Source: Streptacidiphilus sp. PB12-B1b
GTDB lineage: Bacteria > Actinomycetota > Actinomycetes > Streptomycetales > Streptomycetaceae
Direction of reading: 5' to 3'
Assembly: GCF_014084125.1 (NCBI RefSeq)
Contig: NZ_CP048405.1
Span: forward strand, 6,138,001 to 6,202,000
Length of the DNA: 64,000 nt
In this document: in pieces, positions 38,546-47,895 of the stretch
Layout of the letters: each line of letters begins with the position of its first letter
Position numbering within the stretch: the first letter of the stretch is position 1
Made by a program: the position numbers and the translations under genes
The notes under the pieces: model-generated
The model's input: only the letters and a program-made list of their open reading frames with translations
Told to the model about the DNA's origin: nothing
Databases searched by the model: none

Positions 38546-38620
38546 ATGACCGTCCTTGTCAGCCGCCGCCACGTGGACTACGGGCGCAGCACCAGCACCG
38601 GCTGTAGCAGCCCCAGCTGA
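38546..38620 (+). CDS. Putative cysteine leader peptide upstream of metY-metX
   Basis: A 24-residue reading frame, MTVLVSRRHVDYGRSTSTGC and four more residues. It matches a Streptomyces leader-peptide type that I recall in front of sulfur-metabolism genes: a short basic N-terminus, an RRHVD motif and a cysteine codon near the end. A -10-like TATGCT ends seven bases before the ATG, which would put the transcript start at or next to the start codon, so the mRNA may be leaderless. An in-frame ATG four codons earlier is the alternative. Slow translation of the Cys codon would report low cysteine and alter expression of metY-metX 194 bp downstream. No clear -35 is seen. Confidence 0.72.
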   Translation: MTVLVSRRHVDYGRSTSTGCSSPS

Positions 38621-44780: not shown

Positions 44781-46382
44781 GTGGACCCCGTGATCATCGT
44801 CGGCGCCGGGCCGGTGGGACTCACCCTGGCCCTGGCGCTCGCCCGCCACCAGGTGCCGAGCATCGTCCTGGACGAGGGCAGCGGGGTCTGCCCCGAGGGC
44901 GTGCGCTCCAGCGTGCTGCGCGCCGACACCGCCGCCCTGCTCACCCGCGTCGGCTACCAGCGGGTCGCCGCCGACGGACGCGGCTGGACCGGCTGGCGGA
45001 CCCAGCGCCGCGGCCGCGAGCTGATCCACCTGCCGCTGGCCCCCGGCGAGGCGGTGCACCTCTCGCAGCACCGGCTGCAACGCGGGCTGCGGGACGCGGT
45101 GTCGGCCACCCCGCTGATCCAGCTGGTCCACGACTCCGCCGTGGTCGAGTTCGAGCAGGACCAGGACGGCGTCAACGTCCGTACCGCGCGCACCTGGTGG
45201 CGCGGAAGCCACCTGGTCGGCTGCGACGGCCCGCGCTCGGGCGTGCGCAAGCAGCTCAAGGTGCGCTTCCCCGGGCACGCCGCCGCCGACCACTACGCCG
45301 TCGCCACCATCCGCGCCGACCTGCCGCTGCCCGGCGAGGCCCGGCTGCACCGCGACCCGCCCCGCTCCCCGGGCGCGCGCGAGGTCACCGCCCGGCCGCT
45401 GCCGGACGGCGTCTGGAGGCTCGACTGGCGGCTGCCGGTGCGCCAGGCGCCGCTCACCCCCGACGCCCTGATCGAACACCTGCGCTCGGCCCTGGCCGAC
45501 TGGAACGACGGCGCGGTGCCGCCGTACGAGCTGATCTCCACCGCCGACCACGTCGTCCAGCAGCGCCTGGCCACCCGCTTCCAGCTCGGCCGCGCCTTCC
45601 TGGCCGGCGACGCCGCGCACCTGCTCGGCTCGCTCGGCATGCAGAACCTGGACGAGGGCCTGCGCGACGCCGACAACCTCGCCTGGAAACTCGCCCTGGT
45701 CTGGCACAACTGCGCCACCGAGCGGCTGCTCGCCAGCTACCAGCAGGAGCGGCGCGCCGCCGTCATCGCCCGGCTGCGCTCGGCGGACCAGGCCAGGCCG
45801 CTGCTGCAGCCCAGCACCCCGCTGCTGGAGGTGCGCCGCAGCGTCCTCTCCGGCTCGCTGCGGCGCAACGCCACCCTGCTCTCCGACGGCAGCCTGGGCA
45901 CCGGGCGGCTGGGCTCGGCCCCCGCCTACCCGGGCGCCGGGCGGGCCGCGCTCAGCCCGAACCTGCCGCCGACCAGCCCCGGGGTGCTCGTCCCCGACGT
46001 CCCGGTGGTGACCGCCGACGGCGCCACCGACCGGCTCCGGGCCAGGCTCGGACGCGGCTTCCTGGTGGTGCTGGTCGCCCCGGGCACGGCGGTGTGGGCC
46101 AGCGACTACTGGCTCGGCGCCGGGCTGATGCCGCAGCTCACCGAGGCCACCCGGGCGCTGCCGCTGCCGGCGGAGCTGCTGGTGACCGAGGAGTACCCGA
46201 CCGCGGCCCCGCACACGGTGCTGCTGATCCGCCCGGACGGGCACCTGGTCGCCGCGCTGCGCGGCTGCCACCCGGACGACCTGTGGACCCTGGCCGACCG
46301 CGCCCGGGGCGGCTCCGCCGACCTGCCGCTGCCGCGCACCGACACCGTCGCCGCCGCCCGCGTCCCCGCCGACCGCCCTTGA
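44781..46382 (+). CDS. FAD-dependent monooxygenase (aromatic hydroxylase type)
   Basis: 533 residues. The Rossmann FAD motif is VIIVGAGPVGLTLALALARH (about residue 4). VGCDGPRSGVRK is the DG motif and FLAGDAAHLLGSLGMQNLDE the GD motif (about residue 275), continuing into RDADNLAWKLAL. The C-terminal 100 residues form a thioredoxin-like domain seen in phenol- and polyketide-hydroxylase relatives. The GD motif lacks the usual PP/GGxG form (LLGSLGMQN), so substrate binding may differ. The GTG start has GGAGGGA upstream. The gene stands alone; the next unit begins 32 bp later with a leader peptide, so the substrate cannot be inferred. Confidence 0.87.
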   Translation: MDPVIIVGAGPVGLTLALALARHQVPSIVLDEGSGVCPEGVRSSVLRADTAALLTRVGYQRVAADGRGWTGWRTQRRGRELIHLPLAPGEAVHLSQHRLQRGLRDAVSATPLIQLVHDSAVVEFEQDQDGVNVRTARTWWRGSHLVGCDGPRSGVRKQLKVRFPGHAAADHYAVATIRADLPLPGEARLHRDPPRSPGAREVTARPLPDGVWRLDWRLPVRQAPLTPDALIEHLRSALADWNDGAVPPYELISTADHVVQQRLATRFQLGRAFLAGDAAHLLGSLGMQNLDEGLRDADNLAWKLALVWHNCATERLLASYQQERRAAVIARLRSADQARPLLQPSTPLLEVRRSVLSGSLRRNATLLSDGSLGTGRLGSAPAYPGAGRAALSPNLPPTSPGVLVPDVPVVTADGATDRLRARLGRGFLVVLVAPGTAVWASDYWLGAGLMPQLTEATRALPLPAELLVTEEYPTAAPHTVLLIRPDGHLVAALRGCHPDDLWTLADRARGGSADLPLPRTDTVAAARVPADRP

Positions 46383-46407
46383 CGATCTTGCAGGCCCGTG
46401 CTTCACT
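46379..46407 (+). promoter_or_regulatory. Promoter of the cysteine dioxygenase unit
   Basis: A -35 TTGACG and a -10-like TTCACT are spaced by 17 bp, overlapping the stop codon of the monooxygenase gene. Transcription would start about at 46414-46415, exactly at an ATG, which suggests a leaderless leader-peptide mRNA. The -10 lacks the usual TA start, so this is a prediction. Confidence 0.5.
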
Positions 46408-46414
46408 GGCGCCC

Positions 46415-46588
46415 ATGCGGCAGCAGTACAGGTGGCTCCGGCCACTCGGTGTCTCGGCGGAGGGCTCAAGCGTCGCCCCCCGGGATGTAGGCATGCTGTC
46501 CGCGAGCCCCCTGACCGGCATCGTCCTGGTGCGTCGCACCCATCTGGACCTGGTCAGGTACCTCGGCTCGCTCTGTACACCCGGCTAG
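46415..46588 (+). CDS. Putative cysteine leader peptide upstream of cysteine dioxygenase
   Basis: A 57-residue frame whose C-terminal part, IVLVRRTHLDLVRYLGSLCT, matches the same leader-peptide type as the metY one: LVxRR(x)H(L/V)D, then a single late Cys codon. The ATG used here coincides with the predicted transcript start. A shorter version from an ATG at 46493 (31 residues, MLSASPLTGIVLVRR) is possible. The stop is followed by 231 nt of C-rich leader before the dioxygenase gene. Presumably ribosome behaviour at the UGU codon senses cysteine. The product itself probably has no function. Confidence 0.68.
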   Translation: MRQQYRWLRPLGVSAEGSSVAPRDVGMLSASPLTGIVLVRRTHLDLVRYLGSLCTPG

Positions 46589-46819
46589 CCGAACGCTAGC
46601 CGACGAGCCCCCGCGCCCTCTGCGCGGCCGGGCCCGTCCCCCTTCACCCGCGCCTTCACCGCACGGCACCGCGCATCCGCGCGGGCGTCCGCGTATCCGC
46701 ACCCCCCGCACAGCCACCGCGCAGCGCCGCGCGCGACCGGCTGCGCGACCGTGCACCCGCGCCCACACGCCCCTGGGCAGTCCGGCACACCCCGAACGCC
46801 ATCGCCGAAGGACTCTGCC
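46589..46819 (+). promoter_or_regulatory. C-rich untranslated leader before cysteine dioxygenase
   Basis: No plus-strand gene is seen. By hand count 93 C and 53 G occur in 46621-46800, a skew like that in front of metY. It may be a Rho-loading region or hold competing hairpins for attenuation. A short CGAACGCTAGCCGACGAGC block just after the leader stop contains a GCTAGC palindrome. Confidence 0.48.
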
Positions 46820-47389
46820 TTGTCCGAGACCCTCACCCGAGCGGATTCCGCGCCAGAAGCGGACCAGCCCGCCGCCGCCGACCGCCCCGCCCGGGAGGAC
46901 GTCCCCGCCCTCGCCGACATGCTCGCCTTCGCCCGGGCAGCCGCGGCCGACCCCGAGGTGATCAGCCGGCTCCCGCTCCACCCCGAGGAGCGCACCTGGG
47001 TACGGCTCGAAGGCCCGGGCGGCTGCGAGGCATGGCTCATCGGCTGGCCGCCCGGCTCCGAGACCGGCTGGCACGACCACGGCGGCTCCAGCGGCGCGTT
47101 CGTCACCGCCGAGGGCGAGCTCAGCGAGCTCTCGCTGGGCGTGCCCATCCCCACCGACGGCTGGCGCAGCCTGGAGCTGGAGGACGGCGTCGACCGGCAG
47201 CGCAGCCTGCCCGCGGGCACCGGCCGGGCCTTCGGCGCGCACCACGTCCACCAGGTGGTCAACCCCTCGGACGACCGGCACGCCGTCTCGGTGCACTGCT
47301 ACTACCCACCGCTGCCCAAGATGCGGCGCTACGCCCGCAGCGGCGACGTGCTGCGGCTGTCCCAGGTCGAGATCCCCGAGGAGTGGTGA
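46820..47389 (+). CDS. Cysteine dioxygenase
   Basis: A cupin-type iron enzyme oxidising cysteine to cysteine sulfinate, the first step of cysteine breakdown. Iron-binding residues are in GWHDHGGSSGAFVTAEGELS (two His, about residue 85) and AHHVHQVVN (third His, about residue 142). About 189 residues, like other bacterial members. The TTG start (LSETLTRA) has GAAGGA seven bases upstream. It is followed by a rhodanese gene 2 bp later. A leader peptide with a cysteine codon precedes it, consistent with induction by excess cysteine. The N-terminal 40 residues are variable. Confidence 0.9.
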   Translation: MSETLTRADSAPEADQPAAADRPAREDVPALADMLAFARAAAADPEVISRLPLHPEERTWVRLEGPGGCEAWLIGWPPGSETGWHDHGGSSGAFVTAEGELSELSLGVPIPTDGWRSLELEDGVDRQRSLPAGTGRAFGAHHVHQVVNPSDDRHAVSVHCYYPPLPKMRRYARSGDVLRLSQVEIPEEW

Positions 47390-47391
47390 CC

Positions 47392-47895
47392 GTGCCCGAG
47401 CCAGGCACGCCGCCGGGCGGCACCGAACCGCGCGGCACCGAACCGCGCGGCACCGAACCGCGCGGCATCGACGGGCTGATCGAGCGGGAGCGCGCCCGGC
47501 TCGACCGGCTGACGCCGCAGCAGGCCGCCGAGGCGGTCCGGACGCACGGCGCGCTGCTGGTGGACATCCGCTACGCCGCGCTCCGCGACCGGGACGGCAC
47601 CATCCCCGGGGCGGTGATCGTCGAACGCAACGAGCTGGAGTGGCGGCTCGACCCGCGCGGCGACCACCGGCTGCCCGAGGCCACCGGGGACGACCTGTGG
47701 GCGGTGGTGGTCTGCAACGAGGGCTACGCCTCCAGCCTGGCCGCGCGCTCGCTGCACGCCCTCGGCCTGCACCGGGCCACCGACCTGGTCGGCGGCTTCC
47801 AGGCGTGGGCGGCGGCCGGGCTGCCGGTCACCGCCCCGGTGCCGGGAGCGCCGGTCCCGCTGTCCGCGCCGATCAGCGGCTGGTCTGCGAGCTGA
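47392..47895 (+). CDS. Rhodanese-like sulfurtransferase domain protein
   Basis: 167 residues. The rhodanese fold is recognised from LLVDIRYAALRDRDGTIPGA, the active-site loop VVVCNEGYASSLAARSL with the catalytic Cys (about residue 105), and DLVGGFQAWAAAGLPV. It probably handles sulfane sulfur from cysteine breakdown. The GTG start at eight bases from GAGGAG is preferred over one two codons earlier that overlaps the dioxygenase stop. Three perfect 15-bp tandem repeats encode a GTEPR run near the N-terminus. It is co-transcribed with the dioxygenase. Confidence 0.88.
   Translation: MPEPGTPPGGTEPRGTEPRGTEPRGIDGLIERERARLDRLTPQQAAEAVRTHGALLVDIRYAALRDRDGTIPGAVIVERNELEWRLDPRGDHRLPEATGDDLWAVVVCNEGYASSLAARSLHALGLHRATDLVGGFQAWAAAGLPVTAPVPGAPVPLSAPISGWSAS
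47419..47463 (+). repeat. Three perfect 15-bp tandem repeats in the rhodanese gene
   Basis: GGCACCGAACCGCGC is present three times head to tail and encodes GTEPR three times. The unit length is a multiple of three, so copy-number change would keep the frame. It lies in a variable N-terminal tail, not in the catalytic domain. Confidence 0.9.

Follow-up and report, generated by a model that had tools for sequence, protein, structure and literature searches.

The window, as we call the whole stretch of 64,000 nucleotides analysed here, belongs to a 7.67 Mb genome of the Streptacidiphilus type. It carries a short leader open reading frame (ORF) in front of genes for a cysteine dioxygenase (CDO) and a rhodanese-domain protein. 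The features of the locus, together with a second leader used for comparison, are the following.

38552-38578, + strand: metY leader, match to NCBIfam NF042934 in the RRHVDYGRSTSTGC region (L017), for comparison in the same window
46379-46407, + strand: predicted promoter, TTGACG (46379-46384), a 17-nt spacer and TTCACT (46402-46407), read directly
46415-46588, + strand: leader peptide ORF, predicted to be leaderless, with the ATG at or next to +1
46415-46528, + strand: N-terminal extension of the leader, codons 1-38, restricted to Streptacidiphilus clade A; reads in frame and shows partial conservation (RPLGVSA..G..VAPRDVG)
46532-46576, + strand: conserved core RRTHLDLVRYLGSLC with H(-11), D(-9), R(-6), and Cys(0)
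46574-46576, + strand: UGU Cys codon, putative pause codon, invariant across the leaders of CDO and of other genes of the family
46583-46601, + strand: hairpin GGCUAGC-CGAAC-GCUAGCC around the leader stop, its 5' arm 9 nt past the first base of UGU; putative role
46589-46819, + strand: intergenic region between leader and CDO, 231 nt, C-rich and T-poor (117 C, 65 G, 30 A, 19 T)
46804-46808, + strand: likely CDO Shine-Dalgarno sequence AAGGA, read directly, position approximate
46820-47389, + strand: cysteine dioxygenase type I (CDO; cupin thiol dioxygenase), 189 aa, TTG start; PF05995, E 1.2e-37
47386-47895, + strand: rhodanese-domain protein, GTG start at 47386 overlapping the CDO stop, alternative start GTG 47392; PF00581, E 1.9e-11

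The leader ORF, read directly from the sequence, encodes 57 amino acids (MRQQYRWLRPLGVSAEGSSVAPRDVGMLSASPLTGIVLVRRTHLDLVRYLGSLCTPG) between the ATG at 46415 and the TAG at 46586-46588, and contains a single Cys codon, TGT at 46574-46576. The -10 element TTCACT is separated from the ATG by 7 nt, and transcription is predicted to start at the ATG or one base before it, placing the start codon at promoter +1, as in the relatives. The initial annotation had proposed this promoter with its transcript start at the ATG, and the arrangement is indeed repeated in relatives. The promoter falls below the threshold of a strict sigma-70 scan of the 46300-47450 region. An ATG at 46493 was also considered as a start and was dropped, as it is not conserved and most other clade A relatives have Val or Thr there. 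It is the ATG at 46415 that is conserved, and its homologues are the leaderless starts of other CDO leaders.

The upstream gene ends in a TGA that overlaps the -35 box. This gene is flavin monooxygenase-like, spans 44800-46382, and lies between transporter genes and the CDO leader, an arrangement apparently kept in some relatives (L024, L031, and L034-L036).

The catabolic nature of the target, claimed in the initial annotation, is supported; the two downstream products match PF05995 and PF00581. The best solved relatives of the window CDO are 8qfr and 8qfl. A rhodanese match follows CDO in 44 of the 55 named loci. In the window, the part of the rhodanese gene that encodes the N-terminus contains a short tandem repeat, GCGGCACCGAACCGC at 47417-47470 (GTEPR repeated). 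No Rfam cis-regulatory RNA matched above the gathering score anywhere in the window.

Conservation of the leader and its family

Of the 165 CDO loci examined in Streptomycetaceae and a few relatives, 150 have a leader with this motif upstream of the gene, which gives 120 distinct leaders. The loci lacking it are those of Streptacidiphilus clade B, contigs too short to include the region, and one distant locus from Lapillicoccus. The seven clade B genomes have a diverged peptide behind the same promoter (MGIIVLRSVRSTRLDVVRCPRLFCTPG and similar). Among the diverged leaders of the clade B loci L028 and L031-L036 (MGIIVLRSVRSTRLDVVRCPRLFCTPG; ..CCTSFCASFCTQG), some have gained extra cysteines. The promoter, an ATG 5-8 nt behind it, and then the leader frame were found in all 14 Streptacidiphilus genomes searched. 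In Streptomyces, where VTDTDVRLWRRVHMDLVRYAGCVCRPSC is an example of the peptide, promoters of the TTGACC-N17 type are conserved.

Relative to other leaders, those of clade A are extended at the N-terminus by ca. 26-30 codons. The RNA of this extra stretch (46415-46528) contains a hairpin of the GUGGC-UNCG-GCCAC type.

In the window's clade of Streptacidiphilus, the pS/pN values were 0.278/0.138 for the whole leader, 0.334/0.065 for the core, and 0.248/0.182 for the N-terminal extension, and the signal vanished or reversed in shifted frames. This indicates protein-level constraint on the core. Judged from these comparisons, the CDO leader is conserved and coding, and the Cys-codon leader proposed in front of CDO and rhodanese holds up. 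Open frames are abundant in high-GC DNA, and this one might have arisen by chance and have no function; however, the comparative data contradict this, as both the amino acids and the codon are constrained across genera, and we regard such an origin as extremely improbable. In many Streptomyces-type leaders (L060-L105 and others), the RVHxDL codons form a strong hairpin, AGGGUCC AUxU GGACCU, and part of the DNA conservation there may therefore reflect RNA structure.

By its core, with R.H.D..R.....C close to the C-terminal end of a short ORF, the leader matches NCBIfam NF042934 (cis_reg_atten, 'putative leader peptide'). CDO leaders share with this family the core just before the stop and the sulfur genes downstream. 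The window peptide differs in its long N-terminal extension and in its score, which lies below the cut-off (15.5-17.3 bits against 27; 16.1 bits in the genome scan). The CDO leaders of three Streptomyces genomes score above it, at 35-37 bits; hence CDO leader peptides have already been catalogued, their role aside. Going by its name, the family entry describes neither a mechanism nor a catabolic role.

The window genome has ca. 14 leaders of the NF042934 type. The genes behind them encode a sulfurtransferase, two luciferase-like monooxygenases, a sulfite reductase, a CysO-like sulfur carrier, and MetY, and further targets are a sulfatase-like gene, an amino-acid transporter, carbonic anhydrase, and others, some of these assignments having been made by reading translations rather than by domain search. 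Family leaders also precede cysO/cysM and sulfonate-use genes. NF042934-type leaders are a sulfur regulon, and CDO is a member of it. The kinship of the CDO and metY leaders, already proposed in the initial annotation, is supported by R(-13), H(-11), D(-9), R(-6), and UGU(0), which are common to both. The carbonic anhydrase gene, with the family leader MTVLVRRRHVDFGRLSSAACRAHR (L011, G000:C1:3211198-3211251), was an unexpected target.

A second CDO paralogue, CDO2, was found in all 121 family genomes searched; we take SCO3035 to be its orthologue. In 30 of 30 loci, CDO2 is preceded by a short ORF that ends in clustered cysteines and is unlike the NF042934 peptides. In the window genome, this peptide is MSEHRATTRSLHGALRRGSSALCCRCCS (..SSALCCRCCS*; G000:C1 about 1200900-1201500, minus strand; L002), and it starts close behind a TTGACA promoter-like sequence; elsewhere (L218-L246), the CDO2 leaders end in ..NCCCPCRCR or ..FSCRCHHSCCR. 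Of their Cys codons, 93 of 125 are TGT. Since both paralogues have Cys leaders with different peptides, the link between a Cys leader and CDO arose, or was kept, twice.

The UGU codon and the RNA downstream of it

The codon for Cys(0) is TGT in 120 of 120 distinct CDO leaders and in 36 of 36 leaders of other sulfur genes, while in ordinary genes TGT makes up 7 of 83 Cys codons (∼8%). As the searches were run on protein sequence, this codon bias is not a product of how the leaders were picked. The number of cysteines varies: the window leader has one, most Streptomyces CDO leaders have two (C.C), and runs of cysteines occur only in the CDO2 leader. At Cys(-2), 106 of 109 CDO leaders use TGC, and in Streptacidiphilus the residue is Ala or Ser.

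Among 33 distinct CDO cores, D(-9) and R(-6) are invariant, and so is H(-11), which is also common in the leaders of other genes. The leaders of other genes were picked by the pattern D..R.....C and the CDO leaders by a looser core motif, so that the invariance of the residues is partly aided by selection. In the CDO set, the distance to Cys(0) was free to vary by two residues, and no variation was seen. Arrest in the late His/Leu/Arg run, the other option raised in the initial annotation, would also be conceivable: these residues are invariant, but the UGU codon is invariant as well. A rare UGU kept at one distance from fixed nascent residues has the expected appearance of a pause site. The proposal that UGU is the likely pause site is borne out to this extent.

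In Streptomyces-type CDO loci, the codons directly after UGU (CGN CCG TCC TGC TGA) can form a helix, in most cases of 8 bp, with the CDO Shine-Dalgarno sequence. The predicted minimum-energy fold is built around this helix of CCGUCCUG in the leader with CAGGACGG at the Shine-Dalgarno. Across the loci, 95% of cells are paired, with 53 distinct pairs, a level reached by 8 of 5000 permutations in a test run on related sequences with small variation. Better evidence than the permutation figure is the reappearance of the helix in altered sequences: CCGUCCCG/UGGGACGG, GGCCGUCCUG/CAGGACGGCC, CCCGUCCG/CGGACGGG (Actinospica, L098), and UGUCACCGCC/GGUGGUGACA (Wenjunlia, L100), each with p of 0.002-0.006 by shuffling. 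The helix is weakened in several Streptomyces (L169, L180, L184, and L185) and is absent from the leaders of other genes, where the best score was 16.6 vs 22.

A similar device is known in mycobacteria, where polycysteine leaderless short ORFs act as attenuators (Canestrari et al., 2020, cited in PMC9094748 and PMC13236596). According to PMC13236596, mycobacterial cysteine genes are under translation attenuation, and stalled ribosomes break a pairing between the upstream ORF and the Shine-Dalgarno sequence. Like the systems outlined there, the CDO leader is a predicted leaderless ORF with Cys codons near its stop. Leader pairing with the Shine-Dalgarno is seen in Streptomyces-type loci and not at the window's own locus. 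The CDO leader differs in having one fixed UGU and a conserved peptide instead of a Cys run, and CDO as the target; the CDO2 leader resembles the mycobacterial attenuators more than the CDO leader does.

The sequence that has to be covered to free the CDO Shine-Dalgarno in Streptomyces-type loci sits just 3' of UGU. When the ribosome footprint was imposed on the folding, the modelled mean openness of the Shine-Dalgarno core, 0.06 in the ribosome-free RNA, was 0.09 when Cys(-2) occupied the A site, 0.25 when UGU(0) did, and 0.29 when the ribosome stood at the stop codon. In this model, UGU would therefore be the first Cys position where a waiting ribosome frees CDO. The modelled opening is partial and slightly higher at the stop, so that anatomy alone does not fix the sign of regulation.

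The rise in openness from Cys(-2) through UGU to the stop would also suit a leader that senses passage of ribosomes: starvation would stall them at UGC(-2) and keep the Shine-Dalgarno paired, and replete ribosomes would reach UGU or the stop and switch CDO on. Most Streptomyces CDO leaders do have Cys(-2). Still, this position is Ala or Ser in Streptacidiphilus, and its codon is nearly always the common UGC, which is wrong for a starvation gate. Together with the short residence of ribosomes at a stop codon and the co-induction of CDO with cys genes (see below), this makes such a sensor very unlikely.

At the window's own locus and in its clade, pairing of the leader with the Shine-Dalgarno was not found, and there was no consistent partner; Shine-Dalgarno sequestration was therefore dropped for this clade. 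The hairpin around the leader stop keeps its stem in L024 and L027, where the loops differ, and is shortened in L025; in 18 Actinacidiphila-type sequences, it is nearly invariant and thus gives little covariation. The folding z-score of the whole leader, -2.2, is uninformative by itself. No intrinsic terminator with a U-tract, the mark of a transcription attenuator of the trp type, was found in 46300-47450. A Rho-dependent step at the C-rich intergenic region is possible; the composition would suit Rho and is not evidence for it.

In Kitasatospora-type (ACCGUCC at -24) and Actinacidiphila-type (CCACCUGG at -34) loci, core codons may pair with the Shine-Dalgarno, in registers that differ and are not separable from chance. 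In the Kitasatospora-type loci L050, L096, L102, L153, and L167, a Leu-to-Thr change in HLDTVRY makes the ACCGUCC, which is complementary to the CDO Shine-Dalgarno GGACGGU and lies 24 nt upstream of UGU, not just after it.

Sign of regulation

By locus numbers in the recA neighbourhood, SCO5772 of Streptomyces coelicolor is presumably the ortholog of the window-type CDO. It has been named a putative cysteine dioxygenase (PMC3087709). In RNA-seq data from S. coelicolor treated with 0.15 mM H2O2, SCO5772 was 8-fold up, and the same rise included SCO6094-6102 (ssu, cys; cysIHCDN-ssu), SCO4164 (cysA), SCO2910-2912 (cysM), and metNIQ (PMC4991794). In the Streptomyces genomes that we scanned, the counterparts of the ssu/cys, cysA, and cysM operons carry family leaders. 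This co-induction favours the same sign, and the published mRNA data under H2O2 suggest that the CDO and cysteine-synthesis leaders are switched in the same direction. The initial annotation had argued that the CDO and metY leaders, if sensing the same amino acid, must act with opposite sign; the joint rise of SCO5772 and the cys genes speaks against this (PMC4991794). Other conditions have been reported as well: diamide induces cysI, cysA, and cysM independently of NdgR, and in Streptomyces SCUT-3 grown on feathers, a cysteine-rich substrate, cdo1 was 50-fold and cdo2 8-fold up.

The H2O2 induction of SCO5772 and the cys genes was lost in an hbpS-senS-senR mutant (PMC4991794). As the response needs HbpS-SenS-SenR, it may not be leader-driven and could act via promoters. 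The leader could then be translated and play a minor role, with the main control being transcriptional, e.g. through a SenR-dependent pathway acting at the promoter, which is conserved. This would leave the invariant UGU, the invariant residues, and the helix with the CDO Shine-Dalgarno unexplained, and we consider it quite improbable.

We lean, with moderate confidence, towards a cysteine attenuator that is leaderless, gated by UGU, and of the same sign as the biosynthetic leaders. The conservation, the promoter and start, the invariant codon and residues, and the Streptomyces pairing come from the sequences themselves, and to these the model would add translation of the CDO leader, pausing, a cysteine signal, and a physiological reason. 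Translation of the leader ORF would begin at the very 5' end of the mRNA, and the ORF would serve as a cysteine sensor of the cis_reg_atten family. When charged tRNA-Cys is scarce, a ribosome would wait at the single invariant UGU; the nascent-chain residues H(-11), D(-9), and R(-6) would probably make this pause stronger or set its timing. The waiting ribosome would cover the RNA just 3' of UGU, which without it would serve as the 5' strand of a stable helix. In Streptomyces-type loci, the pause would block this helix and leave the CDO start site free. In the window's clade, the corresponding RNA would be the hairpin around the leader stop, with Shine-Dalgarno access or Rho as candidate downstream steps. 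CDO and rhodanese would thereby be co-induced with the cysteine regulon, perhaps as a safety valve against cysteine overshoot; another conjectured purpose is thiol or sulfite handling, or action on thiols other than cysteine.

Several points speak against the same-sign attenuator. Destruction of cysteine under scarcity seems wasteful, the cdo genes of SCUT-3 rise on feather, the H2O2 induction depends on hbpS-senS-senR, and the Shine-Dalgarno pairing is missing in the window's clade and weakened in several Streptomyces. The partial modelled opening and the score of the window peptide below the NF042934 cut-off count against it as well. The main alternative is cysteine-induced arrest of the opposite sign, in which excess cysteine or a derivative would arrest the ribosome on RRxHLDLxRY..C at or near UGU and open CDO, and the biosynthetic leaders would use other downstream RNA folds. 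The model for it is TnaC of the tryptophanase operon (PMC10941005), likewise a leader of a catabolic operon with conserved nascent residues spaced from the arrest site. The fixed distance of H(-11), D(-9), and R(-6) from Cys(0) in the CDO cores is as expected for residues in the exit tunnel. As the helix of the leader tail with the Shine-Dalgarno occurs only in CDO leaders, the sign could differ by RNA architecture. CDO genes rise on feather keratin, and a CDO opened by plentiful cysteine is metabolically sensible. However, the identical residues and UGU also precede biosynthetic genes, the invariant rare UGU hints at decoding speed or tRNA charging, and SCO5772 rises with the cys genes under H2O2. 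TnaC arrests on excess tryptophan, whereas the mRNA data for CDO point to the other sign. On balance, we hold such arrest to be rather unlikely.

A combined reading has one sensor of nascent peptide and UGU serving both cysteine synthesis and breakdown, with the 3' RNA fold setting the direction and the CDO version arrested by excess cysteine. Cysteine would be sensed here as charged tRNA or as a free ligand, via the conserved arrest motif. This reading is unlikely, too.

Novelty and meaning of a catabolic target

Seliverstov et al. (2005; PMC1262725) predicted Cys-codon leaders upstream of cys operons and cbs. These are similar to the CDO leader as candidate cysteine attenuators of Actinobacteria without terminators, and differ in coming from Mycobacterium, Propionibacterium, and Bifidobacterium, with none reported there for Streptomyces or CDO. 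Neither the peptide family nor cysteine attenuation in Actinobacteria is new. In a limited literature search, we found no paper on a CDO leader peptide, and likewise no report of leaders on both CDO paralogues, of an obligatory UGU, or of leader codons after UGU complementary to the Shine-Dalgarno. The initial claim that a catabolic use of this leader type is new stands insofar as no description was found in the literature searched, and has to be qualified because NF042934 already scores CDO leaders above its cut-off.

Known cysteine attenuators serve genes of synthesis or import, and leaders before both CDO paralogues break the rule of a biosynthetic product. They pose a clean test: does a sensor of cysteine starvation also switch on an enzyme that destroys cysteine? 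The invariance of UGU across more than 150 leaders provides a simple handle on cysteine sensing. One group has concluded that a further regulator must exist for the co-induction of Streptomyces cysteine genes by oxidative stress (PMC4340878). For this co-induction, the leaders offer a candidate mechanism that acts after transcription.
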